Below, piece after piece: positions 5,990-62,819 of a DNA stretch of 64,000 nt. The stretch spans positions 84,939-148,938 of IMG/VR virus record IMGVR_UViG_3300042863_002243. The stretch is one strand, 5' to 3'. Numbering within the stretch: position 1 is the first letter of the stretch; the number at the start of each line of letters is the position of its first letter. The notes under the pieces are model-generated. The model did not search any database, was not told the DNA's origin, and saw only the letters and a program-made list of their open reading frames with translations. This stretch comes from a virus. Position numbers and translations under genes: made by a program.

Positions 5990-6589
5990 ATGAGAAACAT
6001 CAAAGAATATAGAGATTTCTGTATTAATGAATCTGAAGAATTATTCTTTAGCAGACACTTAGGAAATGATGCTAAGACATATGGTGATAGGGCTAAAAAT
6101 CATTATAACCTACCTGAAGATGCTAGTATATTACAAAAAACTCAAAGGTTCTTTGGGTACATCGAAGACAAGCTAAACAATATTGCACAAGCAGGACAAG
6201 ATATAACAAGACAAAATAGAGCTGTTAGAGGCGGGGGTTTAAATACTGGATATGAAATGTTATTCGGTCTTCCGGCTATTGTACCAGGAGTACTTAAAAG
6301 AGTATTCGGACCTACTAAATATGAGATTTCTAAAAGAGTACCAGCTAAGGATGAAGATGTAGATGTTGAGTTCATGAGACACACAAATGAGGATTTTGCT
6401 AAAAATGAACTACCGAACATTAAAACTGAGCAACAATTAGAAGATAATATCACCGAGCTTTATCAAAAAGCTCAGGTTAATAAAGGACAGGTACCTGCTC
6501 TAGATGATATAGGAATGAATAGAGCTTACCTTTATTATACAAAACAAAAAAATCCTAATCAACCTATATTCCAACCAAATAACGCATAA
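5990..6589 (+). CDS. hypothetical protein with N-terminal capsid-targeting-like tag
   Basis: A 199-aa protein beginning MRNIKEYRDFCINES, which fits the shared N-terminal tag, with a candidate prohead-protease cut after INE (residue 14). The rest is soluble, with a Gly/Pro-rich central part (GYEMLFGLPAIVPGVLKRVFG) that could be a short amphipathic or membrane-active helix. No family recognised. It follows a late-type promoter, so virion-associated cargo is the inferred role. Confidence 0.6.
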   Translation: MRNIKEYRDFCINESEELFFSRHLGNDAKTYGDRAKNHYNLPEDASILQKTQRFFGYIEDKLNNIAQAGQDITRQNRAVRGGGLNTGYEMLFGLPAIVPGVLKRVFGPTKYEISKRVPAKDEDVDVEFMRHTNEDFAKNELPNIKTEQQLEDNITELYQKAQVNKGQVPALDDIGMNRAYLYYTKQKNPNQPIFQPNNA

Positions 6590-6593
6590 AAAA

Positions 6594-7346
6594 ATGAAAA
6601 AATTCTCTTTAGTAATAGAAAAGAAAAGACAAGACTTAAAAGAAGCAGAACTTGTAACTGAAAGAAATCAGTATTTAGATTTCTCTAAGAAGTACAATAA
6701 AGAACATGGTGTTTCTGGACCTTTTGATAAAAAATTCAAAGGTGATGAAAAATCACAGGAAGAGTACATGCAAGGTCTTTCAATGGCTTGGGACGAGTAC
6801 AAGAAAAAGAAAGGTATTAAACTTAAATCTAATAGCAAAGACTTTGCTTTCAAAAAGAAAATGAATGAGTCTAAATCTTCTGATATGGCTAAGCAGATGA
6901 TCGGTGATGGCGGAGATCCTAACTATCATTTTGTTACTATGTGTGACGATTACATGTTTGAGAAAGAAGATGCTATGATGAATTATAGTAAAGAGCCAAT
7001 GTCTGCTCCTTTAAAGATCAAAACCACACCGGATTTTGGAATCTATACATTCGGTCCTTTTATGAATATAGAAGAATCAAAAATGTTTGCTGAAAGCATC
7101 GAATTAGATGAGATCAACGGACCAAGAATGGTAACTATACAAGACAGAAAAAATGGTGAAGTATTCTCTAAATTCTTATCATGTAAAATGCAACCAGTTT
7201 GGGACGAGCATATTGAAGAGCATGTAGGAAGCATGGAAGATGAAGAAGACGAAGAAGAGGAAGAAGATCCTAACATGGAATACACTTATGGTGATGAAGA
7301 TGAAGGTACTGACGATGTAGTTTACGATGAGGATGAGGAGGAATAA
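6594..7346 (+). CDS. hypothetical protein with very acidic C-terminal tail
   Basis: A 250-aa protein. The first 100 residues are Lys-rich and helical, the middle is mixed, and the last 40 are almost only Glu and Asp, ending in EDEEE. The start MKKFSLVIEKKRQD is only a weak match to the tag. An acidic-tailed, Lys-rich helical protein recalls T4 prohead core proteins, but there is no sequence basis for that name. It lies 4 nt after the previous gene. Confidence 0.5.
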   Translation: MKKFSLVIEKKRQDLKEAELVTERNQYLDFSKKYNKEHGVSGPFDKKFKGDEKSQEEYMQGLSMAWDEYKKKKGIKLKSNSKDFAFKKKMNESKSSDMAKQMIGDGGDPNYHFVTMCDDYMFEKEDAMMNYSKEPMSAPLKIKTTPDFGIYTFGPFMNIEESKMFAESIELDEINGPRMVTIQDRKNGEVFSKFLSCKMQPVWDEHIEEHVGSMEDEEDEEEEEDPNMEYTYGDEDEGTDDVVYDEDEEE

Positions 7347-7348
7347 AA

Positions 7349-7795
7349 ATGATGAATCAATTACAAAGTCAAGCTCTATATCCAGTACTGCAACACTATA
7401 CTGGTGAAAAGATAACTTCAATATCTGTTCTTGATGATCATAATCTTATTTTTAATACTTTCATTGGTGATGATGGTTTTGTTAATCAGAACACAGATGG
7501 AGATTGGGAAATAATAATAGAAAACAAAATTGTCTATACAATAGAGAAGGATGTTTTTGAGGTTCTTGTAAAACCAAGTAGAAAAAGTTCATTAGAGAAT
7601 TACGTTGGTATTCTTAATGATCTTTTTAATGATAAAAAAATAAGCAATAGATCAAGGATATTGGTTTTTAATATCCTCCTATTTCTAGAAGAATATATAA
7701 TAAACTCAGACTTTCTTCCAAAGAAGAATTTAAGAGTTGGTCCTTTTAGTATTTTTAATTACAAGGGGAATAAATTTGTTTACTGTTTAAATTAA
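7349..7795 (+). CDS. hypothetical protein
   Basis: A 148-aa soluble protein with mixed beta and helical patterns and no membrane segment, tag or metal motif. It starts 2 nt after the previous stop and ends 3 nt before the large nucleotidyltransferase-like gene, so it is part of the same transcription unit. No family recognised. Confidence 0.5.
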   Translation: MMNQLQSQALYPVLQHYTGEKITSISVLDDHNLIFNTFIGDDGFVNQNTDGDWEIIIENKIVYTIEKDVFEVLVKPSRKSSLENYVGILNDLFNDKKISNRSRILVFNILLFLEEYIINSDFLPKKNLRVGPFSIFNYKGNKFVYCLN

Positions 7796-7798
7796 AAA

Positions 7799-9841: not shown

Positions 9842-10678
9842 ATGAAGAAGATATTAAGCTTTAAAGATTTTTCACTATACGAATATCAAAAATTTGACAA
9901 CTCACTATACAATAAAATTAACGAAGCTACATTTACGGACGAGGTGGAGAAAAGAAAATATGATCCGGTAGCTTTCAAAAAAATGAGGGCTGCAGTTTTC
10001 TTTCTAAACGCACAATATCCTTTCTTTGGAGGTCTTTTGTCTAGATTAATCATTAGAGAAAATAGAGGTATAAAAACAATGTGTACTGATGGAGTAAGTA
10101 TTCACTACAGCCCAGGATTTGTACATGAACATACTGATGATGAAATAATGTGGGTAATAGCCCATGAGGTTTTACATTGTGCTTTATTACATTTCCTAAG
10201 AATGCCAGGAAAGGATTCTAAAACAGTAAGTATATGGAATTATGCTACAGATTATGCTTTAAATCAGATGCTTACACCAGTCGATGAATCAAATCCAGGT
10301 AATCCTAAGCCTAGCGAAAAGAGAGGAGACTCTATAGGTAAAATGCCAAAGGGAGCATTATATCCTGGATGTGGAAGAGTTTCTTACGATAAAGAATTTG
10401 TTGGATTATCTGCTGATAGCATTTATGGTATTTTAATTAAAAATGGATTTCAACCAGATCCGGAAGATTCGCAAGCTGTTAATCCTCCACCACCTCCACC
10501 ACCACCAGCTCCTCCACAGATACCTGTAGTCGGAGATATTATATTCGACCCAGCTAGTGGTAACTACGGTGTGGTAAATAGCGTAGATGAAGATAATGAT
10601 TCAGTGGATTATGATCCTATACCAAAATCTAAGGTTCCTGAATATATTAGAAAAAAATACGAGCAAGACAATTTATAA
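9842..10678 (+). CDS. HExxH metallopeptidase-like protein (DUF2201 N-terminal type), tagged; module 1
   Basis: A 278-aa protein starting MKKILSFKDFSLYEY, a tag-like start, with a second possible cut site KINEA at residues 25-29. The zinc motif HEVLHCALLH lies at 108-117, in the context FVHEHTDDEIMWVIAHEVLH typical of the putative metallopeptidase domain usually fused to a VWA domain. After it come a WNYATDYALNQML segment, a run of Pro residues, and a small C-terminal domain. The VWA half is the next gene, 9 nt downstream, and a MoxR ATPase follows, so the three form one functional unit. A homologous set lies at 37.9-41.2 kb. Confidence 0.75.
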   Translation: MKKILSFKDFSLYEYQKFDNSLYNKINEATFTDEVEKRKYDPVAFKKMRAAVFFLNAQYPFFGGLLSRLIIRENRGIKTMCTDGVSIHYSPGFVHEHTDDEIMWVIAHEVLHCALLHFLRMPGKDSKTVSIWNYATDYALNQMLTPVDESNPGNPKPSEKRGDSIGKMPKGALYPGCGRVSYDKEFVGLSADSIYGILIKNGFQPDPEDSQAVNPPPPPPPPAPPQIPVVGDIIFDPASGNYGVVNSVDEDNDSVDYDPIPKSKVPEYIRKKYEQDNL

Positions 10679-10687
10679 AATCGTAAT

Positions 10688-11671
10688 ATGAAAACAACAA
10701 TAACCGGAATAAGAATCCAAGAAATGGATCCACCTGCAGGAACGGGAGGAACAGGACCAACTCCGCCACCACCACCTATTGGAGATCCTGAAAACGTTGA
10801 TAAATGGAAAGAAGATGAGGATGAGAAAAAAAGGGATCAAGATGGAAAACCAGAAGAAGAAGATGATGAGGATACTTTCGAAAGAGGCTTAACTGGAGGT
10901 GGAGGAACTTCTAATGTTGGGGGAGTATTACCAACAGGATCTCTAGGAGATCTTGGTGGAGATTCTGGATTAAATGGTGAAACATTAGGAGAAGAATGGG
11001 AGACATCATTAAAAAGATCAGAAAATGCTGGAAACGTACCTGCTTCTGTTAAAAGAGCATTAGATAAATTAAAAAGACCTGTTATTGATTGGAAATCTGA
11101 ACTTGAGAAATATATTGATGATGCAGTATCAAAAACTAAATATAAATTACCTGCTAGAAGATTTATTGGAGGCGGTGATGCTCAATACGGATATAAAAGA
11201 TATAAAGAGGACTTTGAGAACTTAGTGATTGCTATAGACACATCAGGATCTATAACTAGACCTATGATTGAGCAATTTCTTTCAGAGACAATGAAAATTA
11301 CAGAGGATTACGCTCCACAAAAAACAGTAATACTTTATTGTGATACCCAAGTTTATGCCCCAGATATTTTAGAACCAGGAGATACTCCAGATTTTAATAA
11401 GATTGCTGGAGGTGGGGGAACTAATTTTTGGCCTCCTTTTAAATGGGTGGAAAAAAACATACTTGACGTGGGTGAAACCCCAACGGTATTTATATACTTC
11501 ACTGATGGATTTGCAGAATTTCCTAAATCATCCGAATACGGAATAGATGGTTATGATGATAGATGTATTTGGGTATTCTTATCTTTTAATGGAGAGCCTT
11601 TTGGAAACGATCAACCTTTTGGTGAAAGAATAGATATCACACTGGCAAATAAAGAAGTGGAAACTATATAA
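10688..11671 (+). CDS. VWA-like protein (DUF2201 C-terminal type); module 1
   Basis: A 327-aa protein. The first 110 residues are a disordered Pro/Gly/acidic region; the remainder is a VWA-like domain with the metal-binding motif VIAIDTSGSI (D-x-S-x-S), a YCDTQVY strand, a GGGGTNFWPPF loop and FIYFTDGFAEFP. VWA proteins bind partners through a Mg-dependent site and typically work with MoxR ATPases. The N-terminal start MKTTITGIRIQEMDPP has an IQE but no clear tag. It lies between the peptidase-like gene and the ATPase. Confidence 0.75.
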   Translation: MKTTITGIRIQEMDPPAGTGGTGPTPPPPPIGDPENVDKWKEDEDEKKRDQDGKPEEEDDEDTFERGLTGGGGTSNVGGVLPTGSLGDLGGDSGLNGETLGEEWETSLKRSENAGNVPASVKRALDKLKRPVIDWKSELEKYIDDAVSKTKYKLPARRFIGGGDAQYGYKRYKEDFENLVIAIDTSGSITRPMIEQFLSETMKITEDYAPQKTVILYCDTQVYAPDILEPGDTPDFNKIAGGGGTNFWPPFKWVEKNILDVGETPTVFIYFTDGFAEFPKSSEYGIDGYDDRCIWVFLSFNGEPFGNDQPFGERIDITLANKEVETI

Positions 11672-11676
11672 AAATA

Positions 11677-11685
11677 GATATATAA
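11677..11685 (+). promoter_or_regulatory. late-type promoter motif GATATATAA
   Basis: Exact motif in the 38-nt gap before the MoxR ATPase gene, 33 nt before its ATG. It gives the ATPase a possible transcript independent of the two upstream genes. Confidence 0.6.
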
Positions 11686-11709: not shown

Positions 11710-13299
11710 ATGAAAAAAATCTATAACTTTAAAGAATTCGTAAATGAATCTTACAATGTAGACGAAGGGGTATTATCTAATATCGGTAGCAAGATTTCAC
11801 AATGGGCTAAACAGCTTATGACCGCAGTAAGAAATGGCATTATTAGAATGATCTCATCTGGTCCTAAAAAGGGATTACCTGCTTATGTGTTATTTAATTC
11901 AGATGAAGGATCTATCTCAGATCAAGTTGAAAAATTCTATCGCGGAACACCTTATTATGATATGAACAATATCAATAATCCTTCCGTAGCAAACGAGGCA
12001 GTGATTCCTTTGGAATGGGATAGAGAGGATGATGTACCTAATTCACTTCCCGAAGAAATAGAATCAGATATTAGAAGAAGTCTTAAAGCTTGTTTATCCA
12101 TTGCAGATCAAATGGATGCCACAACTGATATGGACGAAAAAGCAAGATTACAAAGGGAATTAAGAAAAGTTAAACCATATTTTATTTATGGAGCACCTGG
12201 TATTGGTAAAACACAAATCATAGCTAAAATATGCGATGAGCTTGGGTTAAACCTATTGAATTGCGATGGATTAAGTGCAGAACCAGTAGACTTTGCTGGT
12301 GTACCTAAAGTGGTAGATATTGAAGCTCCATCAGCAGAAAATCCATTAGGTAGGGGGGTTACAAGATCTAACGTAAGTGCGGATATTTTACCATATGATA
12401 ACGGAAAAGGTGGAAAAGGGGGTATCTTATTTATTGATGAATTCAACCGTATGCCTGTTGAAGTACAAAAGATATTCTTATTATTAGCTCAGCAAAGAAG
12501 ACTTGGTGTTAATTATGACATGCCTAATAGATGGTATATCGTAGCAGCAGGAAATAGAAAAGTTGATGACCCTAAGGGTGGTATTGTTGAAATGGGATCT
12601 GCATTACAGGATAGATTTGAGATTGTCAATCTTATTACTAATCCAGCATCAATGAGAAAATATGTAGAGACTACTCCTGGATTATCTGATATATTCCTAC
12701 CAGAACTTCTTGATTTCTTAGATTTTGATGCTAGTTGGTTCCACATGAATGATCCAACTGCTAAGAAATTAAAATACCCTACTCCTAGAGCTTGGGAAGA
12801 TGCTTCTAGAGCAGTTAGAAGGGTTCTTCAAGAGTATGAACAAAAAGGAATATCAGAAGTGCCTCATAGCGTATTAGCAAGAGAATTTCAGAAGAACGTA
12901 GGTAGAGATGCTGCTGTAATGTTCTTAGATTTCTATAAGATAGCTCAGCAGATCCCAGTTAAAGAATTATCGCTTCCTTTTACTGATCCTGATAGAGCTC
13001 CTATTCCTAGTGAATACCAAGGAAAAACTAAAAAATCAGGTACTACTAATAGAACTGATTATGAGCACGCTTTATTCACTGCTGTAATTAGAAAAAGCAC
13101 GGAATTACCAAAATTAACAAGCACTGAGTCTTGTAACTTTTCAAAATGGTTAAGAAGAGTTAATGCACCAGAGATGGGAGCAATGGCAATCACATCATTC
13201 TTCCAAAAACATCCTCATTTATTAGAAGATTATGCAACTATGGAATGTTTAGGACCATTAGCTGATCAATGGGGAGCAGAAATTGGAGTTCAATTTTAA
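11710..13299 (+). CDS. MoxR-family AAA+ ATPase, tagged; module 1
   Basis: A 529-aa protein starting MKKIYNFKEFVNESYN, one of the clearest tags (candidate cut after VNE, residue 13). A helical segment (about 20-50) precedes SGPKKGLP, also found in the second ATPase. The AAA core starts near residue 155: Walker A GAPGIGKT at 161-168, Walker B ILFIDEFNR, sensor 1 VAAGNR, sensor 2 region YPTPRAWEDASR. MoxR ATPases remodel protein complexes together with VWA partners; the VWA gene is just upstream. About 32% of the length lies outside the AAA core. The tag suggests loading into the capsid. Confidence 0.85.
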   Translation: MKKIYNFKEFVNESYNVDEGVLSNIGSKISQWAKQLMTAVRNGIIRMISSGPKKGLPAYVLFNSDEGSISDQVEKFYRGTPYYDMNNINNPSVANEAVIPLEWDREDDVPNSLPEEIESDIRRSLKACLSIADQMDATTDMDEKARLQRELRKVKPYFIYGAPGIGKTQIIAKICDELGLNLLNCDGLSAEPVDFAGVPKVVDIEAPSAENPLGRGVTRSNVSADILPYDNGKGGKGGILFIDEFNRMPVEVQKIFLLLAQQRRLGVNYDMPNRWYIVAAGNRKVDDPKGGIVEMGSALQDRFEIVNLITNPASMRKYVETTPGLSDIFLPELLDFLDFDASWFHMNDPTAKKLKYPTPRAWEDASRAVRRVLQEYEQKGISEVPHSVLAREFQKNVGRDAAVMFLDFYKIAQQIPVKELSLPFTDPDRAPIPSEYQGKTKKSGTTNRTDYEHALFTAVIRKSTELPKLTSTESCNFSKWLRRVNAPEMGAMAITSFFQKHPHLLEDYATMECLGPLADQWGAEIGVQF

Positions 13300-13591: not shown

Positions 13592-14125
13592 ATGAAACAC
13601 ATTAAATTATTTGAAAATTTCTTAAATGAAGATGGATACGGAAGAGACTTCTTTGTAAAAAAGAAAGACGGTAAACTTTCTCAATATTTTTTTAAGATTG
13701 AGGGAGAAGAGGAGGATCTAGGATTTGTAATAAATCTTGGTAAACTATCTAGAAATATCACCATAGAATCTGCAGAGAATAGTTATGCTGTTCTTTCCGT
13801 AGAGCCTATCAGAGAATCTGTGATGGATGATTTTTTAGTGAAAGATTCGGATTTTAAATCAAGAGAAGATGATCAATTCACATTGACTAAATCTGAATAT
13901 ATGAGATTCTATAAGATTGTTGGTGAATGTATAAAAGATTACTTACAATCTAATCCTAAGGTTTCTATTATTTATGATGAGGTACCTTTAAATCTTGATA
14001 TGGATTTTGAAGAGTATTCAGATAAAGTTAAATCTCTTATGGATGAATGGAGCTACGGTAAATGGAGCTCACAAGAGGGAGCAACAAAGAAAACATTAAT
14101 TTATTCTAGAAGAGACCATGATTAA
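13592..14125 (+). CDS. hypothetical protein with capsid-targeting-like tag
   Basis: A 177-aa protein starting MKHIKLFENFLNEDGYG, a strong tag with candidate cleavage after LNE (residue 13). The remainder is soluble, alternating beta strands with two helices (around 105-115 and 140-155), and no recognisable motif. Its stop overlaps the next gene (14118-14125). A start-proximal late-type motif lies 12 nt upstream. Confidence 0.6.
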   Translation: MKHIKLFENFLNEDGYGRDFFVKKKDGKLSQYFFKIEGEEEDLGFVINLGKLSRNITIESAENSYAVLSVEPIRESVMDDFLVKDSDFKSREDDQFTLTKSEYMRFYKIVGECIKDYLQSNPKVSIIYDEVPLNLDMDFEEYSDKVKSLMDEWSYGKWSSQEGATKKTLIYSRRDHD

Positions 14126-14435
14126 TAATATTCTTTCATATGATGAATTTATATTAGAATCTAGGATACCTATAGCTTGGGCTAAGCCTTCAGTAACAAC
14201 TACTAAGGTACTTTCATTCATAGGAGAGAAAGAAAAAGTAACCAAGAAAGAACTATTAGAATTCTTAGATAGTATACCAGAAGATGCTTCAGGTAAGAAA
14301 CCCAGTATGTCTTGGGTTAGAAATCAGAAGAAATATATCAAGTATAAAATACAAGAAGAAGATGCTAACCACTTTGAATTGACCGCTTTAGGCAAGAGAG
14401 TTTTAAAATCTTTCAGGATTAATGAAACAAAATGA
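14118..14435 (+). CDS. tagged small protein with possible winged-helix fold
   Basis: A 105-aa protein starting MINNILSYDEFILESR, tag-like with cut after ILE (residue 14). The rest (KEKVTKKELLEFLDSIPED, then SWVRNQKKYIKY, then FELTALGKRVLK) has the helix/strand order of a small winged-helix domain, but this is only a pattern impression. It overlaps the upstream gene by 8 nt. Confidence 0.5.
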   Translation: MINNILSYDEFILESRIPIAWAKPSVTTTKVLSFIGEKEKVTKKELLEFLDSIPEDASGKKPSMSWVRNQKKYIKYKIQEEDANHFELTALGKRVLKSFRINETK

Positions 14436-15950: not shown

Positions 15951-16532
15951 ATGAATCATATACGATCATTTAGAAGTCTTTTTGAAGGAGTAAGTGCAGT
16001 AACAACTAATTGGTATATTGTAGATAACGAAGCTTCTTTTGATAAGATAAAAGGTAATGGATATATGCTTTTTAGCCAGGTAGGCATAATGACTATCGTT
16101 TATGTTAAACCTAAAGTAGAGGAAGAAGCTAGATTGGATTTTTATTTTGATAAAGCAAAATCACCAGATAAGAAAAGCATTTGTGTTTGTAAGATAATAG
16201 CTAATGACGGTAAAGTTAGGAGCTCTAAAAATTTTGATGATGTAACTACAGATAATGTTTGGGACATAACAGCTACGTTTTTTGATTATTGTGATTTAGA
16301 GAAGTCTGAAAAATCAATTAGAGATAAATTCATGATGGGATATTCTAAGACAATAAAGGATATCTTTAAAGGTGATACAGAAAGAATACCCGGATCATTT
16401 AAAACATATTTGAATTATATGAAAGAATGGGCAAAGAAATCTATAGAGGGTGTTTCTTTAGATAAGAATGAAGATAATTACGATTTCCGAGAGATGATTA
16501 AAGAATTTATTGCTTTCTTTAAAAAATCATAA
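15951..16532 (+). CDS. hypothetical protein with capsid-targeting-like tag
   Basis: A 193-aa protein starting MNHIRSFRSLFEGVS, a shorter version of the tag with LFE before Gly. The body has several beta strands followed by a helical end; no recognisable motif. It begins 1 nt after the previous stop and its 3' end overlaps the convergent minus-strand gene by 6 nt. Confidence 0.55.
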   Translation: MNHIRSFRSLFEGVSAVTTNWYIVDNEASFDKIKGNGYMLFSQVGIMTIVYVKPKVEEEARLDFYFDKAKSPDKKSICVCKIIANDGKVRSSKNFDDVTTDNVWDITATFFDYCDLEKSEKSIRDKFMMGYSKTIKDIFKGDTERIPGSFKTYLNYMKEWAKKSIEGVSLDKNEDNYDFREMIKEFIAFFKKS

Positions 16533-16832
16533 TTTTTCTTTCTGTCTCAATTGGATAAGATAATTTTCCCAGATTGATCCTCCTTCTTTTATACCAGGTT
16601 TAGCGCTCTTGTGTAACTTAGCTCTTTGTGACATTATATACGATGCTATAATAGCATCTTTTAATTCTATTTCTTTTTTATCCAACATTTCTTGTAATCT
16701 TCTTATTGATTTTAGAGCTTCGTCCCTATTTGCAAATCTTAATCCTTTAGGATAGCTTTGTCCTGAGTCGAAAGGTTTAATATCATTTAGATAAATCTGT
16801 TCGAATAATTTGAAGGTTAGAATTTTTTTCAC
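16527..16832 (-). CDS. tagged small helical protein, minus strand
   Basis: A 101-aa protein read from a GTG start, MKKILTFKLFEQIY, tag-like with LFE. The body is helical (DEALKSIRRLQEMLDKKEIELKDAIIASYI) and basic at the end. It is the only minus-strand gene in the first 48 kb, sitting between two plus-strand blocks. A start-proximal AATATATAA lies 12 nt before the GTG. No family recognised. Confidence 0.55.
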   Translation of the reverse strand: MKKILTFKLFEQIYLNDIKPFDSGQSYPKGLRFANRDEALKSIRRLQEMLDKKEIELKDAIIASYIMSQRAKLHKSAKPGIKEGGSIWENYLIQLRQKEKL

Positions 16833-24872: not shown

Positions 24873-25520
24873 ATGAATAGACCTAAGAAGCTTAGCAATT
24901 TTAAAGAATTCGTAAAAGAATACGGAGATATAGATGGAAAAGAAGATACCAAAAAAACCCCATGTATAATTTTAGCAGGACCTCCGGGATGTGGTAAGGG
25001 AACACAAGCTAGAATTATAGCCAAAGGTATGAGATGGAAACACATTTCAACTGGGGATATATTAAGGGATTCTGATAATAAAGAGATCAAGAAGTTAATG
25101 AAAACTGGTAATCTTCTTCCTGATGAGATTGTAGGTAAAGAGCTTATAGATTATCTTAAAAAATTAACTAAACATAGCGATCCTAAGGGATATATTTTTG
25201 ACGGATATCCTAGAAATCTTCAACAGAAGGCTATATTTGACGAGATTTGTAGAATTAATAATATCTCATTAGAATATGTTTTCTTTTTAAATGTCGCAGA
25301 GAAGATATTAAGGGAAAGAATAAAAGAAAGAAGTAAATCTTCGGGAAGATCTGATGATAAAAACGAGGAAGCATTCCAAATTAGAATGGATGAATATAAT
25401 GAACAGACGTTACCTATGATAGAATCTATGAGAAAAGGAGGAGGATTTTTGGAAATATCAGGGGAAAATAAATTGGATGATATTACTAAGCTGATATTTA
25501 ATAAAATTAATGAAATTTAA
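24873..25520 (+). CDS. adk: adenylate kinase with N-terminal tag-like extension
   Basis: A 215-aa protein with a full adenylate kinase core: P-loop GPPGCGKGT at residues 36-44, STGDILRD, FDGYPRN and an Arg-rich ERIKERSKSSGRSDD lid. The short lid marks the small-type enzymes. Ahead of it lie about 28 extra residues starting MNRPKKLSNFKEFVKEYG, which match the shared tag, with VKE as the cut site. It converts AMP + ATP to 2 ADP, feeding NrdA just upstream. The extension suggests that part of the pool could be packaged. Confidence 0.85.
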   Translation: MNRPKKLSNFKEFVKEYGDIDGKEDTKKTPCIILAGPPGCGKGTQARIIAKGMRWKHISTGDILRDSDNKEIKKLMKTGNLLPDEIVGKELIDYLKKLTKHSDPKGYIFDGYPRNLQQKAIFDEICRINNISLEYVFFLNVAEKILRERIKERSKSSGRSDDKNEEAFQIRMDEYNEQTLPMIESMRKGGGFLEISGENKLDDITKLIFNKINEI

Positions 25521-26847: not shown

Positions 26848-27333
26848 ATGAGAATTTTAAAATTTTCCGAATTCCTTAATGAGCAATCAGTTTATAATAC
26901 AGGAGTCCCTTTATACAGAGGCACAAGTTTTGAGCCAGAAAGAACTATTAAAAGAAATCAATTAATTTCTGAATTAAGAAGTCTTTTAACTCAAGTAATG
27001 AATGGTACTCTTTCCGAAATATCTTTAGTAGCAGAAATACCTACACAAGGTAAAAATGCTCCACAATATTTGAAAGATATTTATTCTGAAATGGGATACA
27101 ATCCAGGTAAAGATATGGAAGATGAGTACGATGAAGAAAACGACACTTATCTTGGTAACAGAGACAGAACTGGAGATGAACCATCTACAAACATATTTGT
27201 AGATTCTGAATTTTTAGTTAAAGATGTAGATGAAGCTAGAAATGTTATTATAGCAATTCCTTATTCATTAAAAAAGAAAAACATCTTAGTTGAACTTACT
27301 CCAGAAATGATTGATGAAGCATTCATTAAATAA
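26848..27333 (+). CDS. hypothetical protein with capsid-targeting-like tag
   Basis: A 161-aa protein starting MRILKFSEFLNEQS, almost a superposition on T4 MKTYQEFIAE with one more residue; cut predicted after LNE (residue 12). The next residues include LYRGTSF, recalling ADP-ribosyltransferase-like openings, but no catalytic motif follows, so I do not assign it. An acidic central loop (EDEYDEENDTYLG) is present. Confidence 0.6.
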   Translation: MRILKFSEFLNEQSVYNTGVPLYRGTSFEPERTIKRNQLISELRSLLTQVMNGTLSEISLVAEIPTQGKNAPQYLKDIYSEMGYNPGKDMEDEYDEENDTYLGNRDRTGDEPSTNIFVDSEFLVKDVDEARNVIIAIPYSLKKKNILVELTPEMIDEAFIK

Positions 27334-42599: not shown

Positions 42600-43520
42600 A
42601 TGAGAATAATGAATTTTTCACAATTTTTAAACGAGAACTCAGAAGGTGGATATTCTTCTTTTGAAGCTTTACCTAAACCTCTCAAAGATTTTTTTATTGA
42701 CGGGGTTGGAAAAAACATACTATCTAAAGTAGTCGGACTTAAAAACTTTTCAATAGAACTTCAAGGATCAGAGATATATTTCGTTATTAACGGTAATAAA
42801 ATACTAGTTCCGTTTGTTAATTATGTTTATGATCAAGTTGTGCCTAATACTAAATCATTAACAAATGAACCAATCATTTATAATTTTTATAATAGTTTAG
42901 GAATGGATTTAGATAATTCTAGCTACAGATTCTATAAACATGATATAAATGGTTTATCTAGATTATTCTATCCTATATTTACCAAACTTAGAGATATTAT
43001 AAAAGATGATAGACCACTTCTAAATCCTTTTAATGATATTGATCTAAAAAACAACCGTCTTATACAATTATTAGATAAATTAGGTGCTTATATTGATACT
43101 AGTGATCAAAGGAAAAAGAAAGGGATTTTAAGATTCTCATTAAAAGATTTTGGTTATGGACTTATCATACAACCTAATGGTTATATGAGAATTGATTACG
43201 GTGATAAAACACCAATTCTTACAACTAAGATGGAAATAACAGCACCTGCTTATACTGAGGATGATCTCAATTTAAAATTATCATATTTAGTTGTTTATCT
43301 TATGAAAGATATACTTAAAAAATATAATGTTCCAGTAAAAACTATAAACTTGCTGGCTAAATTCTACGGAGATAGTGATCTTAACGAATATGATAACCTA
43401 ATAAAAGAAATATCTTTAAACTATCCAGGAGCAACTTCTCTTCTTCCTGATCCTAACTCGGTACTAAATCCTAGCGTAAAGAAAGGATCTAGTATGCTAA
43501 GAAGATTTGGAGTTATCTAA
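42600..43520 (+). CDS. tagged hypothetical protein with C-terminal MLRRFG motif
   Basis: A 306-aa protein starting MRIMNFSQFLNENS (cut after LNE, residue 12) and ending KKGSSMLRRFGVI. The C-terminal KGxxML[KR]RFG is shared with the products of the minus-strand genes at 49995 and 52908. The body is soluble, with no recognised motif. It carries both a head-end tag and the C-terminal motif, the only such case in the window. Confidence 0.6.
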   Translation: MRIMNFSQFLNENSEGGYSSFEALPKPLKDFFIDGVGKNILSKVVGLKNFSIELQGSEIYFVINGNKILVPFVNYVYDQVVPNTKSLTNEPIIYNFYNSLGMDLDNSSYRFYKHDINGLSRLFYPIFTKLRDIIKDDRPLLNPFNDIDLKNNRLIQLLDKLGAYIDTSDQRKKKGILRFSLKDFGYGLIIQPNGYMRIDYGDKTPILTTKMEITAPAYTEDDLNLKLSYLVVYLMKDILKKYNVPVKTINLLAKFYGDSDLNEYDNLIKEISLNYPGATSLLPDPNSVLNPSVKKGSSMLRRFGVI

Positions 43521-49994: not shown

Positions 49995-50639
49995 TTATTG
50001 TTCTTCGCTTTGTCCGAAAGAACCAAATCTTTTTAACATTGAAGCTCCTTTACCTGCATCTGTTTTCTTTATACTAGGTGGAATATCAATAGATTTAAGA
50101 TCAGATGGATTTTCTCTCATTTTTCTTTGTATAAGATCTTTATAAGATTCTTCACTATATAATTCATCATTAGTTACTGGAAATCCTTGTTCTCTAATGG
50201 TGTATTTAATTAAGAATGCCATTTTATAAAGATAATCTTCAACTGTCATACATGTTCTTCTAAGATCTGTATTTAATCTAGGAAATTCTGCTGTTAAATT
50301 TGGTCCTTCAACCACTCTAACTCCACCATCGTGTTTAATATTAAAATGCGGGTAACCTTCTTCTGAACGTCTAGTAGCTCTTGATGTTAATCTTGATCCT
50401 TTAAAGTATGGATGATAAAAAGCAATATTACCTAATCGGTCTTTAAAGTTTCTTTCCTCATCAGATGCTTTTGCAAGAATACCTGCTGGATTATCAGCAA
50501 GAACCTCGATCCAACCCATACCAATCATATCTTGATAAGTCTCAGACTCTCTAATAGGCTTAAAATTTAAAACTGGACATTTCTTATCTCTCCTAATTTC
50601 TTGAATTTTTTTAAAGCCTTCGTAATTTTTAATACTCAT
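49995..50639 (-). CDS. hypothetical protein with C-terminal MLKRFG motif, weak tag
   Basis: A 214-aa protein starting MSIKNYEGFKKIQEIR, a poor but possible tag (IQE), and ending near GKGASMLKRFGSFGQ. The C-terminal motif is shared with the 42600 and 52908 products. A late-type motif lies 31 nt upstream. Soluble; no family recognised. Confidence 0.55.
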   Translation of the reverse strand: MSIKNYEGFKKIQEIRRDKKCPVLNFKPIRESETYQDMIGMGWIEVLADNPAGILAKASDEERNFKDRLGNIAFYHPYFKGSRLTSRATRRSEEGYPHFNIKHDGGVRVVEGPNLTAEFPRLNTDLRRTCMTVEDYLYKMAFLIKYTIREQGFPVTNDELYSEESYKDLIQRKMRENPSDLKSIDIPPSIKKTDAGKGASMLKRFGSFGQSEEQ

Positions 50640-54792: not shown

Positions 54793-56058
54793 TTAAGCAT
54801 CGTAAGTACAGTAAATTATACTACTTTTGAATGTAACTTTATCTGCTTTTTTGAGATCTACATTTTCTATAGTTATCTCTTTAGCTTCCCCTTTATTATC
54901 GATCTTTCTAATAGATCCTGATATTACGAAAGAAACCTGTTGCATTTTAGGATCACTTTCAGTAGCTGCCGCACTTTGTACTACAGCTTTACCTTCTACT
55001 ATAGTAGCATCTTTAAGCTGAGCTACACCATCTTTTTTTAATTGGGTAAGCATGGTAATACCGGCTTTCATTCTATCCTTAGCAAGTGCCTCGTTTCCTC
55101 CAGCTCTAGTTGTTGGTTTTTTAGATGCTCCTCCGTTAACTACTATTTTTGAAATAGAGTGGAATTCAGATAAAATTGAGTTAAGAGATGCTTTACCTTC
55201 TTCTCCTATAACTACCTTATTTTCTTCAAAGAAATCCATAGCAGATGAATTATATGCTAAATCAGTTACCTCCTCTATTGATTCTGATGGATTAGGAGGA
55301 ATAACTACAGTGTAAATATCCTTTGATAATTCTTTACCCGTTCCTTTAGAAATATCACTTATAGTGAATACAGGAAAAGCAAAACCATATTCTCCAACTG
55401 GTTTGACTGATACTGTTTCTTCAGCATAAGGAATTATTTGGATTAAATCAGTCTTTAATGAATCCAAATCTATAGTTAAATATTTCTCAGAATATTTCTT
55501 GTTCTTTGCTTTTTTTCCGAAATTAGATGCTCGTTTAATAATCGTAGTACCACTTCCTGTTTGGTTACTTAAAACATAAAGATTATACGCAAATAGGCCT
55601 TTAATAATATCTGATAAAGGATAAGTTTCTGAAGTTTCATCATTCGTTCCTACAGTTCCGGCTTTTCCAGTAACTGCTCCATCAGCTTCCAGGTCAGGAT
55701 TACCTTTAACTCTCACTGTACCGTTAACTAACCATTCGAATTTATTAGCTACTATTGCGTCTGGTGTTATTCCTTTTTGTTTAATATTAACTCCGCTTGC
55801 TTTAGAGTTTAAAAATTCTGTAATGGTTTCAGCAAATCCTTTAGACTCATCTGCGTATGCAGTAGATACACCCAAGCCATTGATTCTGTCTATAATCTTT
55901 ACAAATTGTCTTTGGTCATCTGAGGAAAAGCCTAAGCCACCTCCGAATAATTTTTTAAGAGAATCGATTGATCCTACTGATCCTTCCTCTTCAGTTAGTA
56001 TTTTATATGCCTCATTGACAAATTCATTAAATGAGAATACATGTTTTTTCATTTCCAT
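54793..56058 (-). CDS. tagged OmpA-like virion protein, paralogue A
   Basis: A 421-aa protein starting MEMKKHVFSFNEFVNEAYK (cut after VNE, residue 16). The C-terminal third has SISKIVVNGGASKKPT, then NEALAKDRMKAGITMLTQL, the strand-helix order of an OmpA-like domain with an N-x-x-L-A/S-x-x-R core. The start is nearly identical to that of the 510-aa gene at 56772, so they are paralogues. OmpA-like domains bind peptidoglycan; with the tag this suggests a wall-binding protein carried in the capsid or attached to the virion. Confidence 0.6.
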   Translation of the reverse strand: MEMKKHVFSFNEFVNEAYKILTEEEGSVGSIDSLKKLFGGGLGFSSDDQRQFVKIIDRINGLGVSTAYADESKGFAETITEFLNSKASGVNIKQKGITPDAIVANKFEWLVNGTVRVKGNPDLEADGAVTGKAGTVGTNDETSETYPLSDIIKGLFAYNLYVLSNQTGSGTTIIKRASNFGKKAKNKKYSEKYLTIDLDSLKTDLIQIIPYAEETVSVKPVGEYGFAFPVFTISDISKGTGKELSKDIYTVVIPPNPSESIEEVTDLAYNSSAMDFFEENKVVIGEEGKASLNSILSEFHSISKIVVNGGASKKPTTRAGGNEALAKDRMKAGITMLTQLKKDGVAQLKDATIVEGKAVVQSAAATESDPKMQQVSFVISGSIRKIDNKGEAKEITIENVDLKKADKVTFKSSIIYCTYDA

Positions 56059-56771: not shown

Positions 56772-58304
56772 TTATTTCCCTTTTTTTGTTGTTGTTTGTT
56801 TACCAACTTCAAAACAAAGACATATTTGCTTAATGTCAACTTTATCTGGAGTAAATTTACCAATTGTAGGTGTCATAACAGGAACTGTTTGTGTCGCAGG
56901 AACTGTTCCTGCTTTAGTACCTTTAACTATGAATCTAACTTTTCTCCAAGAAGGACGTGACTCTGTGCTAGTTTTTGGTTGTACGTTTGGTGTTGTTGAA
57001 GCAGTAACTTTAGATGCTGGTATTGCCCATTCTTTTACACTATTGATGTATTTTGCTATTGCTGCAGCTCTTTCGACACATAATTTATCATTATTATCTG
57101 CATCTCCTTCCATCGAAGCAAATCCTTGAATCTCTATTGATTCAATAGAATAAAATCGTTCGATAAGATTGTTAATATTATCTTTACCAGCATCTGTTAA
57201 TACAGATTTGTCTACTGCAAAAAGTACTCTTTTGTTTTCATCTTCATTATTTAAAAGATCTTCTGAGTATGTTTGAACATTTTCCCCAGTAGGTACTGTT
57301 TTTTCTGTAAGAACAATATCAGAGAAAGGAATTTGTCTTGAACTTTTTCCAAGTTCTCCTATTGAATATAAAACTAATGTGAAATATGCTTTTTCGTCCC
57401 CAACCTTTTCAGCCTTATTAATAGTGGGTTCTTTTTGTTTGTCTGTAAGTTCAGCTCCAAGGGGAATAGCAATCGTATATCCGGTAACCTTAGACTTTTC
57501 ATCATCTGTATTAGAAAATTGTTTTCGCGCTCCTTTATTATCTGAATAATCTCCCCCCATAAATTTATCTCTTGAATTAATAATAGATTCATCAGTTAAT
57601 ATTTTTCCGCTGTTAATGGCAGTAATAACAGTTTGGCCTAAAAGACCAGTATTTACTAGATATTTAGTATCCCTAGTATCATAACCGGTTGAATCCGCTG
57701 TCTTTTTTTTCAATGGAGTAAAAGAGGAAATAAAATTAAGAATTTGACCGAATTTTCCCCAGTCATGAGATTTTCCCCCACTTTTGCCAACATCGCTCTT
57801 AAACCCTCTAATTCCGATCCATCTTTTGTCTGTCTGTACTTTATTCCAAAATGTTTTTCCTCTCTTTTGATATGAACCAGAACCTGATTTGTTATAAGTA
57901 TTACCATTATTTAAAACGTATATCCAATCTAAAAGTTTTATTCTCTCATCCTCACCTTCTAGAAGAACAGACTCAGAAATTACATTATCGTATGTGATAA
58001 CATTAATTTTAGTGTCCACCTTAGTGATATTTATACCTGCTGATGTTATACCATTAATAAAAGTTAAAATAGAATTCCCTAACTCCCCTTCCGTATCAGG
58101 AAATTCATCTGTTGATACTGCTTTAGCAATCCCTGAGATAATTCCTAATTCTTTTAGAGCTTCTCCGCTAATTCCAGAGCTCTCAAGTTTACTTATAGCT
58201 TCAATAAGAGCCCCAGCTCCTTCACCTTCCATTAATTTATTGTATCCATTGTAAGCTTCAAATACAAATTCATCGAATGAGAATACATGTTTTTTCATTT
58301 CCAT
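56772..58304 (-). CDS. tagged OmpA-like virion protein, paralogue B
   Basis: A 510-aa protein starting MEMKKHVFSFDEFVFEAYN (cut after VFE, residue 16). The OmpA-like domain lies at about residues 355-460: VLFAVDKSVLTDAGKDNI, IQGFASMEGDADNN, ERAAAIAKYIN, WRKVRFIVKG. This is much clearer than in paralogue A and supports that call too. A probable peptidoglycan-binding virion protein. It ends with a Lys-rich tail. A late-type motif lies 28 nt upstream. Confidence 0.7.
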   Translation of the reverse strand: MEMKKHVFSFDEFVFEAYNGYNKLMEGEGAGALIEAISKLESSGISGEALKELGIISGIAKAVSTDEFPDTEGELGNSILTFINGITSAGINITKVDTKINVITYDNVISESVLLEGEDERIKLLDWIYVLNNGNTYNKSGSGSYQKRGKTFWNKVQTDKRWIGIRGFKSDVGKSGGKSHDWGKFGQILNFISSFTPLKKKTADSTGYDTRDTKYLVNTGLLGQTVITAINSGKILTDESIINSRDKFMGGDYSDNKGARKQFSNTDDEKSKVTGYTIAIPLGAELTDKQKEPTINKAEKVGDEKAYFTLVLYSIGELGKSSRQIPFSDIVLTEKTVPTGENVQTYSEDLLNNEDENKRVLFAVDKSVLTDAGKDNINNLIERFYSIESIEIQGFASMEGDADNNDKLCVERAAAIAKYINSVKEWAIPASKVTASTTPNVQPKTSTESRPSWRKVRFIVKGTKAGTVPATQTVPVMTPTIGKFTPDKVDIKQICLCFEVGKQTTTKKGK

Positions 58305-58351: not shown

Positions 58352-60409
58352 TTAGCTAGCTAAAAATGCGTCAAACGAAGTCAAATAGTTAAATCCTGAT
58401 TCATTCTTTTTCCATCCCTCCTTAGGAGCATTTAACTTAACCGCTTTATCTGCTTGAAATTCGCCTCTTGCTTTTTTGTTTGGTCCTGAGATCACCGTGT
58501 ATTTCCCATCATTGAATAATGTCACTGTGCCTGCTGCTTCTTTTGATTGGTAAGTGTATGTTGCTTTACCACTAGGACTTTGTCCCCAAGTGCCTTTCAA
58601 TTTAGAAACTGCGGGGAATTTCTTTGTGAATTCTCCTTGAGATTTTTTCAATTTGTCTAATAGTTTTTCTGAACCTCCCCCTGCTTTAACTAGAGTTGCT
58701 GTACCAGTTACTCCTATTTTCTTTATTGCTTCTTTATCTTTAGCAGTTATATCAACTTTTATAGGCGCGATTATAGGACCAGATTGTTTTTTAATTCCCG
58801 GTGATGGTGATTTTAATTTAGGGTTACCTGCTATTTTTTTAGATATTTCAACGTTTCTTTTGCCTAGCGAAATCATCCATCCAGTAACAGGTTTAACTTT
58901 AGGCTTAATATATTGATCAATAAATCTCTGTGCACATGATGACATAGGCTTAACAGCACCGGAAAGAGCACTTGATATTATACCTCCTACAAATGATTTT
59001 CCATAATTCTTTTTGAAATTATCTATTCCTTTAGTAATTTTACCTGGTATTTCCATAAGTCCATTGATAGCTTTACCAACTAGTCCTATACCGGCTACAA
59101 CGGAATCGTAAATCCACCCAAAACATGATTTACCTAAATAAACTAAGAAGTTAATAAGTAATTCACCAAATCCCCAAGCTCCTCCTTGTGATTCGTTTAT
59201 TGTTTCATCCCATTCTTCTTGGTATTCTTCGTGATCTAATACTGCTTCTTTTCCTTTGTCTAATGCTGCATCTGCTCCTTTAGCTATTAATTTACCACCA
59301 CCTTTAACAAGTTCACCAGCTTTCTCCATAAATGGTGCTTTCTCACAAAGTGTTGAGAAGAATTCGCCCATCCATTCTGAACATCCTATTACTTTACCAA
59401 CTCCTGTACCTGCTATAGTAGCACCAAAAGCCACTTTATTAAATTTAGTAGCCCAAGTAAGAATACTCGATTTAAGAGAAATACCTAGCATTCCTGCCCC
59501 TGGAACTGCATCTGCAAATCCAGTGACACAATCTTTAATACCTAATATTAGCCCAACTGACCCAAGTACTATTTTAGCTCCGCCTTTTATTATATTTTTA
59601 ACTTTATCAGCAGCTCCTACCTCTTTCATCGATGCAGAGATATTTTGTACCGCCTCGTAAATAGTTATTGCTCCTGCTATTGTAGTAAGAACCCCAGCTG
59701 CTGCCGTACCCCAAGCAGGAACAAAAGCAACTATACTTGATACAATTTGTAACGCTATACCCATTGCAGTAAGCGGATTTTCTTTAATAAATGTAACAAC
59801 GGCAGAAACTATTTTTTTACTGAATTCCCATACTGCTTTAGCTCCTGATGATAGAGCATCCCATGCTTGTACAACTTTCTTACCAACATAAGCTGCTGCT
59901 GCTTTAACAGGTTCAACTACATATTTTTTAACTGCATTTCCCACAGCTTTAACCGATTTTTTAACAAAATTACCAACTGAGCTAACTATATCCCAAAATC
60001 CTTCAAGAATTAATTCAGATTGATTCATTAAGCTTTCTAATGTTGATTCTTTAACTATGTGAAGTCTATTATTTTTAAAAAGAACCACGTGTCCTTCTTC
60101 TATATTTTGGCCGCTCAAGAAAAATATTTCACCTTTAGAGTTAAACCAATCCTGATTGTGCTCGTATAGTACTCCTAGCTCGTATGTATAATAAGCTTGT
60201 TCAAGAAGCAAATTGTTTTCTTCTTCTGAGCTATTCTCATTTAAAGAGACTCCGAAGAAGTTTTTAAATTCTGAAAAATCCCATGCTGCCATACAGTTTT
60301 CCCTAAGAGATGACATTTGATTTATTTTTGCTTCCAATAATCCATCGGAGTCAAAATTATATGATTCATCCACTTTAGTAAAATCGTCAAATAGTGATAA
60401 GTATCTCAT
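58352..60409 (-). CDS. large hydrophobic tagged protein, candidate ejection or pore protein
   Basis: A 685-aa protein. The start MRYLSLFDDFTKVDESYN fits the tag (VDE), and the end NYLTSFDAFLAS resembles the same peptide at the C terminus. Between residues 140 and 460 there are many Ala/Gly/Val-rich helices (for example TAMGIALQIVSSIVAFVPAW and LTTIAGAITIYEAV) separated by amphipathic Lys helices, a pattern seen in pore-forming or DNA-ejection proteins. A small beta domain follows (about 600-660). Function inferred from composition and tag. Confidence 0.55.
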   Translation of the reverse strand: MRYLSLFDDFTKVDESYNFDSDGLLEAKINQMSSLRENCMAAWDFSEFKNFFGVSLNENSSEEENNLLLEQAYYTYELGVLYEHNQDWFNSKGEIFFLSGQNIEEGHVVLFKNNRLHIVKESTLESLMNQSELILEGFWDIVSSVGNFVKKSVKAVGNAVKKYVVEPVKAAAAYVGKKVVQAWDALSSGAKAVWEFSKKIVSAVVTFIKENPLTAMGIALQIVSSIVAFVPAWGTAAAGVLTTIAGAITIYEAVQNISASMKEVGAADKVKNIIKGGAKIVLGSVGLILGIKDCVTGFADAVPGAGMLGISLKSSILTWATKFNKVAFGATIAGTGVGKVIGCSEWMGEFFSTLCEKAPFMEKAGELVKGGGKLIAKGADAALDKGKEAVLDHEEYQEEWDETINESQGGAWGFGELLINFLVYLGKSCFGWIYDSVVAGIGLVGKAINGLMEIPGKITKGIDNFKKNYGKSFVGGIISSALSGAVKPMSSCAQRFIDQYIKPKVKPVTGWMISLGKRNVEISKKIAGNPKLKSPSPGIKKQSGPIIAPIKVDITAKDKEAIKKIGVTGTATLVKAGGGSEKLLDKLKKSQGEFTKKFPAVSKLKGTWGQSPSGKATYTYQSKEAAGTVTLFNDGKYTVISGPNKKARGEFQADKAVKLNAPKEGWKKNESGFNYLTSFDAFLAS

Positions 60410-60419: not shown

Positions 60420-60719
60420 TTAGTTGTTATTATCGTCTGATATTAGGCCATTCTCTGTGTCGTGTGATAATTCAAATGAGGATTTTAAGAAACCGTATAC
60501 CTCTTCGACGTCATCTTTAGATGTTGCAATATGATCTAATGCCCATCCGTGACCATCTGTAAGTGTTGAATCCACCATTGAATGATCCATTGCTAGAATC
60601 TCTTCGCACATTCTTTTAATATTAGATATGTTTGCAAAGAACATGTAATTTTCAGCCTCATCATGATTTTCTGAGATTGATTTTTTGAATTGTGTAAATC
60701 TTTTAATAGAAGGTGTCAT
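60420..60719 (-). CDS. small tagged helical protein
   Basis: A 99-aa acidic helical protein starting MTPSIKRFTQFKKSISENHD, a looser tag (ISE). The core HGWALDHIATSKDDVEEVYGFL resembles short helical proteins found in other T4-like phages. It lies 10 nt upstream of the 685-aa protein gene. Function unknown. Confidence 0.5.
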   Translation of the reverse strand: MTPSIKRFTQFKKSISENHDEAENYMFFANISNIKRMCEEILAMDHSMVDSTLTDGHGWALDHIATSKDDVEEVYGFLKSSFELSHDTENGLISDDNNN

Positions 60720-61024: not shown

Positions 61025-61567
61025 ATGAAAAATCTTACAGTATACGAAACTTATTTAAATTCCGGTAGAGTTAACGAACAAGCTCTTAAAAAAAATACTA
61101 AAACATTAATCAGAGACATTGCAGCACAAAACGGTGTTGATTCAGAAGAACTATTAATGATGGTTCAATCAGATCTTGAAGAAGATGGTGTTATGGAAAA
61201 TAAAATTAACGAATGGATAGGTGGTGAATCTATTGCTACTATGGCTGATTTCTTTGTTATTTTACCTAGTGTTATTGCAGGATTAGTTACTCTTGCTTTA
61301 GGAGGTACAAGATTAGAAGGATGGGCACAAAATAAAAGATGGATTAAAGCTGAAGCAGAGCAAAGAGTTAAGGAAATGATCAAAAAAGATGGAACTTTAA
61401 TTGATAGACAAGCAGAATTAATCACTAAGGTTACTGAAGAACTTAAAAATGATCCAGCAGTTCAAGCTAAACTTAGTAAAGCTAAATGGGAAGGTGGATT
61501 AGATCACCCTTCTATCAAAAAAGATAGATCTACTTATAAGACTCACATCTTCGGAGGAGGTTATTAA
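61025..61567 (+). CDS. tag-like hypothetical protein with a membrane-type helix
   Basis: A 180-aa protein starting MKNLTVYETYLNSGRVNEQ, a looser tag with VNE at residues 16-18. A hydrophobic stretch ADFFVILPSVIAGLVTLALGG lies at about 74-94, then a long amphipathic helical region. It sits alone on the plus strand with two late-type motifs and a terminator. Unrecognised. Confidence 0.55.
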   Translation: MKNLTVYETYLNSGRVNEQALKKNTKTLIRDIAAQNGVDSEELLMMVQSDLEEDGVMENKINEWIGGESIATMADFFVILPSVIAGLVTLALGGTRLEGWAQNKRWIKAEAEQRVKEMIKKDGTLIDRQAELITKVTEELKNDPAVQAKLSKAKWEGGLDHPSIKKDRSTYKTHIFGGGY

Positions 61568-61617: not shown

Positions 61618-61632
61618 AGTGATAAAATGGTT

Positions 61633-61968
61633 TTATTCTGATAATCTTTTCTCGTATTTTTCGGCTAATTTAGCGTATCTAGTGAAGTCTCGGAGGTTTA
61701 AGTAAAGGAAAATACTTAAAGGCACATTTATTAACATTAGATAGTAAATAAACCATGTTTCTTGTACGCCAAAGTAACAAAGTGCAGAGCAAATATAGGA
61801 GAATGCAGCAAAAAATATGTTTCTTCCCATGTTTTTGCTGAAGTATTCTTTCGATTGTTTGAATTCATTGATCATTTCTCTTTTTTTGAAGATATCTAAT
61901 GAATCGAAATGCTCATCAAGAGATACTTCTGGCTTGATTGAGTTTATAATATTTGCTTCTTTTTTCAT
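61633..61968 (-). CDS. small membrane protein under early-type promoter
   Basis: A 111-aa protein with two hydrophobic helices (NIFFAAFSYICSALCYFGV and FIYYLMLINVPLSIFLYLN) flanked by charged ends. It forms a stand-alone cassette with its own early-type promoter and the terminator at 61584. Function unknown. Confidence 0.6.
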   Translation of the reverse strand: MKKEANIINSIKPEVSLDEHFDSLDIFKKREMINEFKQSKEYFSKNMGRNIFFAAFSYICSALCYFGVQETWFIYYLMLINVPLSIFLYLNLRDFTRYAKLAEKYEKRLSE

Positions 61969-61991
61969 GACTTTATATTTTGTTTATAAAG

Positions 61992-62028
61992 TAAATATAG
62001 ATAATTCTAATTGTATAAAAAAATGATT
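61992..62028 (-). promoter_or_regulatory. early-type promoter (AATCAT, 23 nt, TATATTTA)
   Basis: On the minus strand: AATCAT at 62028-62023 and TATATTTA at 61999-61992, 23 nt apart, as at 54185 and 56197. Confidence 0.7.
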
Positions 62029-62042
62029 CCTAGATTTTCACC

Positions 62043-62819
62043 TTAAGAGTTCCTATTATTATAATTTTTTTCGTAATCTTTAAGAACATTTGGATTTGAT
62101 TTAAGATAAGCTATTTCTTTATTTGTTTTTGTCTTCAATTCATTAGATAATGTTTTAAGCTTCGAAGAAAGAGATTGTGTAAATCCTGGAGTTTTTCTGT
62201 ATGTTGAAAAGTAATCTATAAATCCTAATAACTTTGCTGGGTGATCCTTAGGATCTGATGATATACTTGGATCATTTATTTTCCTAGTTAATATAAAAGT
62301 GCCATATCCTTCTCTACCACCATCTATCGGATTTGTGTTTCCTTCTATTCCAGTCCATGTTTTATTTGTTTTATCTACCGATAGTACTATACCAGTATGA
62401 CCTTTACCTGGATATGTGCCTTTTGATTTGTCCCTAGATAAATAACAAAATACCATCCCCGGTAAAATTAAATCTAAATTTAGACCTGATTTATATTCTA
62501 TTTTTTTTGCTCCTGTTTTCTCCCAATGTAATTTTACACTAGCAGAATTTGATATTTTATTTTTAATGTCTGAAGAGAATTGAGTTTTAGATAAAACGCC
62601 ATGAATGAATCCTGCACACCAAGGATCTCCTGGCTTTGCGTTAACTCCTTTTAATAGCGATTCAACTTTAGTGCCTTTATTACTTCCTCTAGGAGCTTCT
62701 TCAGAATCAGCTGATTTAATAGCAGAATAAAAACTATTAACAATGGAATTTGTTACTTCTTTCTTTTCTGCCTTTTCGCTTTCAGTTATGTACTCAATAA
62801 ATGATAAAATACTAATCAT
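62043..62819 (-). CDS. tagged CHAP-domain peptidoglycan hydrolase
   Basis: A 258-aa protein starting MISILSFIEYITESEK (cut after ITE, residue 13). The CHAP fold shows PWCAGF (C68), then PGMVFCYL, GKGHTGIV (H141) and GIEGNTN (E159, N161), the Cys-His-Glu/Asn catalytic set. It should cleave peptide bonds in peptidoglycan. The tag suggests a virion-delivered wall enzyme rather than a cytoplasmic endolysin, and no holin is next to it. Confidence 0.75.
   Translation of the reverse strand: MISILSFIEYITESEKAEKKEVTNSIVNSFYSAIKSADSEEAPRGSNKGTKVESLLKGVNAKPGDPWCAGFIHGVLSKTQFSSDIKNKISNSASVKLHWEKTGAKKIEYKSGLNLDLILPGMVFCYLSRDKSKGTYPGKGHTGIVLSVDKTNKTWTGIEGNTNPIDGGREGYGTFILTRKINDPSISSDPKDHPAKLLGFIDYFSTYRKTPGFTQSLSSKLKTLSNELKTKTNKEIAYLKSNPNVLKDYEKNYNNRNS

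Follow-up and report, generated by a model that had tools for sequence, protein, structure and literature searches.

Capsid-targeting-like leaders on some 22 window proteins of a T4-like phage suggest an enlarged protein cargo

The internal proteins of phage T4 (IPI, IPII and IPIII) have unrelated bodies behind a common type of N-terminal leader that combines YxxF or FxxF with [LI]xE. T4 leaders are 10-19 residues long, and mutants of IPIII showed that residues 4 and 7 serve targeting and residues 8 and 10 processing, with 10 residues being sufficient (PMC9026906). Once injected, the T4 internal proteins block GmrSD restriction (PMC12373910). T4 has three of them, and at least ten have been reported across related T-even phages. 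One T4 sequence, MKTFKEFTSTTTPVSTITE/A (the slash marks the cleavage position here and below), which we take to be IPI, has a spaced form of the leader, FKEF..ITE/A. In phiKZ and SPN3US, which have many proteins in the head, head proteins are likewise cut after x-x-E by a prohead protease, but most of their propeptides exceed 100 residues and only one is of CTS length (PMC5694885). Sphingomonas phage PAU, the host of which is now placed in Sphingobacterium (PMC3738902), has many genes with a common LxE leader and provides a further system for comparison.

Here we describe a 64,000-nucleotide window, the final 64 kb of a 149 kb viral contig whose source is a T4-like myovirus. A strict tag, defined as [FY]xx[FY][ILV]xE within residues 2-16 of called genes, was found in 14 of the 164 contig genes. 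Its frequency in the interior of these proteins predicts 0.35, and shuffling the N-termini 1000 times gave a mean of 0.49 and a maximum of 4. Eleven of these matches lie within the window; one of the 14, at contig 51236-51385, is a spurious ORF. When the spacing between the aromatic pair and [LIV]xE was left free to vary (two-module rule), the count rose to 27 of 161 contig genes against 1.8 expected. An unsupervised motif search ranked [KR]x[ILVM]xx[FYW]xx[FYW] first among N-terminal patterns (18 genes, 0.3 in shuffles), and [LIVM]xE follows an N-terminal aromatic core within ten residues in 23 of 36 genes compared with 15% for internal cores. The accepted window set comprises 20 rule matches together with the genes at 29574, admitted with Leu as the first aromatic, and 39356, whose tag lies near residues 18-28, giving 22 proteins. 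The sequence-only reading of this DNA had counted about 19, which was right, and every start that it quoted is in place. Two other rule matches, NrdB (18791) and the tail protein that ends at 460, are probably due to chance, and the RNA ligase (50785) was excluded since its N-terminus looks native although it fits the loose motif. Further tagged genes were found in the contig beyond the window; the members at contig 9083 and 9752 have FxxF without an obvious [LIV]xE. A short leader is thus shared at the extreme N-terminus of unrelated proteins, as in T4-type capsid targeting sequences, and we consider it very probable, judging from the sequences, that the N-terminal peptides of about 22 window proteins are T4-type targeting and processing leaders.

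Several of the tagged proteins belong to recognizable families (window coordinates, plus strand unless a minus is given). Two are MoxR-type AAA ATPases, at 11710..13299 (MKKIYNFKEFVNE/S; PF07728; tag also in the G006 and G010 homologs) and 37860..39359 (MKNSRIKNFNDFVNE/S; PF07728, 40 bits), and two are DUF2201_N metallopeptidases, at 9842..10678 (MKKILSFKDF-SLYE/Y; PF13203, 83.7 bits; ortholog FNDF-AIFE/Y) and 39356..40288 (..IITSFSNYVRFINE/S; PF13203, 76.2 bits). A tagged adenylate kinase (24873..25520; MNRPKKLSNFKEFVKE/Y; PF00406, 119 bits) has its kinase domain from about residue 30, and PDB kinases align to it from residue 23-32. Its ortholog in G016 is tagged and that in G013 is untagged and starts at the domain; the tag is therefore a detachable extension. 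Two AAA ATPases, two metallopeptidases and an adenylate kinase had been named from the sequence alone. Tagged OmpA-like proteins and wall enzymes had been named as well, with a more mixed outcome: the protein at 56772..58304 (minus; MEMKKHVFSFDEFVFE/A) matched PF00691 at 31.9 bits and that at 54793..56058 (minus; MEMKKHVFSFNEFVNE/A) did so weakly, below cut-off, while of the supposed wall enzymes the CHAP/endolysin-like protein at 62043..62819 (minus; MISILSFIEYITE/S; homolog leader MMKRIYSFREFILE/A) has a weak match (CHAP E=0.0017, below cut-off; endolysin phrog_21357) and the protein with collagen-like stretches at 32930..34423 (MDKKLFTFKQFINE/Q) matched phrog_3000 (unknown function) but no enzyme family. 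No tag is present on gp32, a UvsW-type helicase, both polymerase parts, NrdA, NrdB, topoisomerase, UvdE or DnaJ.

The other tagged proteins are those at 5990..6589 (MRNIKEYRDF-CINE/S; no family match; an ortholog with an indel retains INE/S), 13592..14125 (MKHIKLFENFLNE/D; tag retained by three relatives), 14118..14435 (a small protein; MINNILSYDEFILE/S), 15951..16532 (MNHIRSFRSLFE/G; ortholog MNHLFTFQQLFE/K), 16527..16832 (minus; MKKILTFKLFE/Q; ortholog MKKILSFKLFE/D), 26848..27333 (MRILKFSEFLNE/Q), 29574..30326 (MILRLSDFVNE/Q; ortholog MILRLKDFVSE/Q), 41257..42126 (MKRIKSFKLFE/S), 42600..43520 (MRIMNFSQFLNE/N), 49995..50639 (minus; MSIKNYEGF-KKIQE/I), 58352..60409 (minus; 685 aa; MRYLSLFDDF-TKVDE/S; ortholog MRYLSLFDDF-NQIDE/S) and 60420..60719 (minus; a small protein; MTPSIKRFTQF-KKSISE/N; ortholog MEMSSIKRFDQFLNE/E). 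The least certain member, at 61025..61567 (MKNLTVYETY-LNSGRVNE/Q), had no homolog in our search. At their C-termini the proteins at 42600 and 49995 carry SMLRRFG and SMLKRFG, respectively, forms of a motif G[AST][SN]ML[KR]RFG that is also present at 52908-53744 (minus) and that G006 orthologs of two of the three proteins retain in some form; the motif may be a further signal, for sorting or for interaction.

The MoxR ATPase and the DUF2201_N metallopeptidase form a cassette with a VWA-like partner, present in two copies (window 9842-13299 and 37860-41241). In both cassettes this partner has no leader: the first (10688..11671) matches PF09967 at 67.8 bits, and the second (40294..41241), downstream of the metallopeptidase, is VWA-like by position and sequence resemblance. 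The same domains occur in jumbo phages as a MoxR-vWA pair with a metallopeptidase, for which assistance in virion assembly has been proposed, and the passages of that account consulted here do not mention a packaging leader (PMC7824862). One alternative, which we regard as rather unlikely, may be that the tagged ATPases and peptidases are assembly helpers led into the prohead for head maturation and are not injected cargo. In addition to the jumbo-phage proposal, it is favoured by the tags on small proteins of the gp23 cluster and by the recurrence of the tagged MoxR/metallopeptidase pair in G006 and G010, with a tagged metallopeptidase also in the metagenomic phage LR756500. However, the adenylate kinase, the endolysin-like and OmpA-like proteins and the leucine-rich repeat (LRR) proteins of LR756500 have no evident role in assembly, and the targeting step would be the same as for the T4-type leaders that we favour, only the fate of the proteins being different.

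The earlier reading had assumed a fixed distance between the aromatics and [LIV]xE, which did not hold: the spacing varies and the tag consists of two modules. [LIV]xE follows the aromatics immediately in some tags (FKEFVNE), after a spacer in others (FNQF-NLDE, FRDF-CINE, FNDF-IDSNVNE, FDDF-TKVDE), and overlaps them in a few (FKLFE). In the 22 pairs of orthologs that this phage shares with G006, scored by residue class for the aromatics and P3 and by identity elsewhere, the first aromatic is kept in 20 and the second in all 22, P3 is hydrophobic in all 22 and the P1 Glu is kept in 21, compared with 59% identity for the other leader residues and 54% for the following ten residues. Several pairs have an indel between the modules that both survive, for example FNQFNLDE/SSAAGNM versus FAQFINE/SSAAGNM and FRDFCINE/SEELFF versus FKDFCQINE/SNEELFF, as expected if targeting and cleavage sites are under independent selection. 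With two aromatics three apart and [LI]xE at the leader end, both modules being kept in orthologs, the closeness to the T4 capsid targeting sequence that had been claimed is borne out in detail. Phage phiKZ-type ejection propeptides were rejected as a description, as the leaders here have about 10-25 residues and the head genes are of the gp23 and S77 families.

A gp21-type protease, which the sequence-only reading had proposed to look for in the rest of the genome, was found. A profile search of the window's own contig gave no Peptidase_S77 match because the 5' end of that contig falls within gp23. A near-identical contig, G001, whose MoxR protein is 100% identical, runs further upstream and carries the head genes, including a complete gp23 and a 678-residue protease-scaffold fusion with an N-terminal Peptidase_S77 part (Pfam profile, E=5.5e-11, 42.8 bits against a cut-off of 27) followed by a repeat region. 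The protease matches the T4 gp21 structure 5jbl, and its GELDHP and SISSRAAG blocks are nearly all invariant in 28 relatives, so that a score above cut-off and a conserved catalytic region together identify it as Peptidase_S77. The scaffold repeats, Y..Y[LIV][AG]E, are present in 10-15 copies in 57 relatives, with a spacing of exactly 14 residues in 668 of 702 intervals; with tag-like forms such as YSEYLAE, the scaffold part is built of tag-like motifs, each with a potential cut site. In gp23, which adjoins the protease, [FY]HSLNESAGAY is invariant among 49 distinct relatives, and HSLNE/SAGAY agrees with the NE/S favoured by the tags (N at P2 in 11 of 27, S at P1' in 10 of 27). G001 thus provides both a cognate gp21-family protease and a matching capsid site. 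The first five head-cluster genes had no Pfam or PHROGs match. Structure predictions were poor (pLDDT 44 for gp23 and 50 for the protease-scaffold protein) and give weak hints only; the repeats were modelled, at low confidence, as a single long helix.

Compared with T4, the likeness extends to a gp21-family protease, a gp23-family capsid protein and an IPI-like spaced form of the leader. The differences are that about 25 proteins are tagged here against a handful there, that the tags sit on enzymes and large proteins with a preference for Asn at P2 and Ser at P1', and that the protease is fused to a scaffold of tag-like 14-residue repeats.

The nearest matches of gp23 are LR756500, a phage of 462 kb (42%), and the Lak phages of Prevotella (41%), followed by phages of Tenacibaculum, Flavobacterium and Chryseobacterium and by PAU. 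With the two-module rule, 22 genes are tagged in G006, where 3.1 would be expected, and the excess is smaller in G010, G016 and G013. LR756500 has 36 against 9.0 expected, about 27 genes bearing a crisp leader, MKYIKEYEEFILEA; several LRR proteins are among those tagged, as is a DUF2201 metallopeptidase joined to its VWA part. Its tags are strong and its scaffold repeats degenerate, and in addition to the protease-scaffold fusion it has a second short gp21-like protease piece (154846-155136). The same test finds T4 IPII and IPIII, but no comparable tag expansion in T4, partial Aeh1, KVP40 and P-SSM2, MaF61 or PTm1; in Lak-A1, MaF61 and PTm1 the protease is present and the tag motif is not enriched. 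The tag is thus retained in relatives and absent from several other T4-like phages. In the first 400 kb of Lak-A1 about five proteins start with NIKxL[LMV]ESLFDDD or similar, possibly a different leader in Lak phages. PAU has the same capsid and protease families as this phage, but its protease and scaffold are separate genes. The rule fitted to this phage gave no enrichment in PAU, and an unsupervised search found a different leader there, MKTLxxLYEAKLNEA on 20 genes, compared with KxIxxFxxFVNES here. Four of the five "internal capsid protein" notes of the PAU record fall on leader-bearing genes (hypergeometric P=7e-5; the record states no basis for the notes), the fifth, gp70, being without tag. 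N-terminal sequencing showed that maturation shortens the PAU capsid protein from 585 to 520 residues (PMC5646251); the nearest LxE, ALME64/N65, predicts 521, one residue off, and by eye this stretch sits where the gp23 of our phage has LNE/S.

That the leader directs proteins elsewhere, to a membrane, a replication compartment or the periplasm, and is left uncut by the head protease seems quite improbable. A few members do lack a clear [LIV]xE site, but the P2/P1' preference agrees with gp23, [LIV]xE outlasts indels, the scaffold bears the motif, internal capsid proteins of PAU are tagged, and there is no tag on the replication enzymes, proteins that a nucleus-like compartment would have to import. 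It is more improbable still that the tags are common only through paralogy from one inherited N-terminus: the two OmpA-like proteins both have MEMKKHVFSF and several tagged LRR proteins of LR756500 are paralogs, but most bodies have no detectable mutual relation and belong to different families, and orthologs of the same kinase differ in having the tag. Least credible of all is a start-of-gene nucleotide element (a ribosome or expression signal) or chance composition since, although the tag is always close to the start codon, TTT/TTC and GAA/GAG are both used and the distance to Met varies, so that selection acts on the protein level, and the tag is enriched over shuffles and internal windows and absent from several other T4-like phages under the same test.

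Taken as T4-type leaders, the tags would function as follows. The [FY]xx[FY] module would draw each tagged protein into the scaffold core as it grows inside the prohead; once the shell closes, the scaffold-fused gp21-type protease would cut after [LIV]xE, just as gp23 and the scaffold repeats are expected to be cut by it, and the leader would be lost, leaving the mature protein in the head. We infer such targeting, cleavage and packaging from the sequences, and the presence of the tagged proteins in mature heads by analogy, for which the PAU annotation is the sole external label. The cargo, with two MoxR-type ATPases, two metallopeptidases, adenylate kinase, OmpA-like and endolysin-like proteins and many of unknown function, suggests that this virus packs an unusually large enzyme set beside its DNA. 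It may then act in head maturation or pass with the DNA into the next host. Injection and the roles of the cargo are the least certain part of this account; injection is plausible because the T4 internal proteins are injected, and as these are anti-restriction factors, counter-defence is a candidate role for the other tagged proteins. We also speculate, tentatively and with some doubt, that the tag imitates one unit of the 14-residue scaffold repeat (ISYSEYLAENLDKN), so that cargo would join the rod as an additional repeat and the same cuts would dissolve the scaffold and release the cargo. If this were correct, it would constitute a packaging code that lets huge Bacteroidota phages carry dozens of ready-made enzymes into the host.

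Packaging of this kind is known from T4. In the literature covered, with subscription journals and preprints outside it, we found no published description of such a tag expansion; relative to that literature, what is new is how many proteins are tagged, that enzymes are among the cargo and that the scaffold repeats resemble the tag. If the leaders act as proposed, sequence alone would reveal virion cargo throughout a whole group of huge phages and identify many internal head proteins whose function is unknown, and MoxR ATPases, metallopeptidases and kinases would be tied to the first minutes of infection. The many tags would constitute a natural experiment that separates targeting from processing, and a new family of packaging signals.

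Other features of this genome were observed along the way. PADLOC gave only weak ATPase and MotB-like cross-matches and no defence systems. Before the window begins, the G000 contig has a stretch (~12600-37000) in which about 25 genes in a row look, by eye, like sugar biosynthesis and glycosyltransfer genes. Within the window there are a long collagen-like repeat protein (19824-22229) and a phage-encoded tmRNA with the tag EEAELLLAA (47819-48274). The family B DNA polymerase lies in two genes about 18 kb apart (16887-18293 and 36644-37819), and in G006 the split polymerase pieces are bordered by ORFs resembling intein ends.
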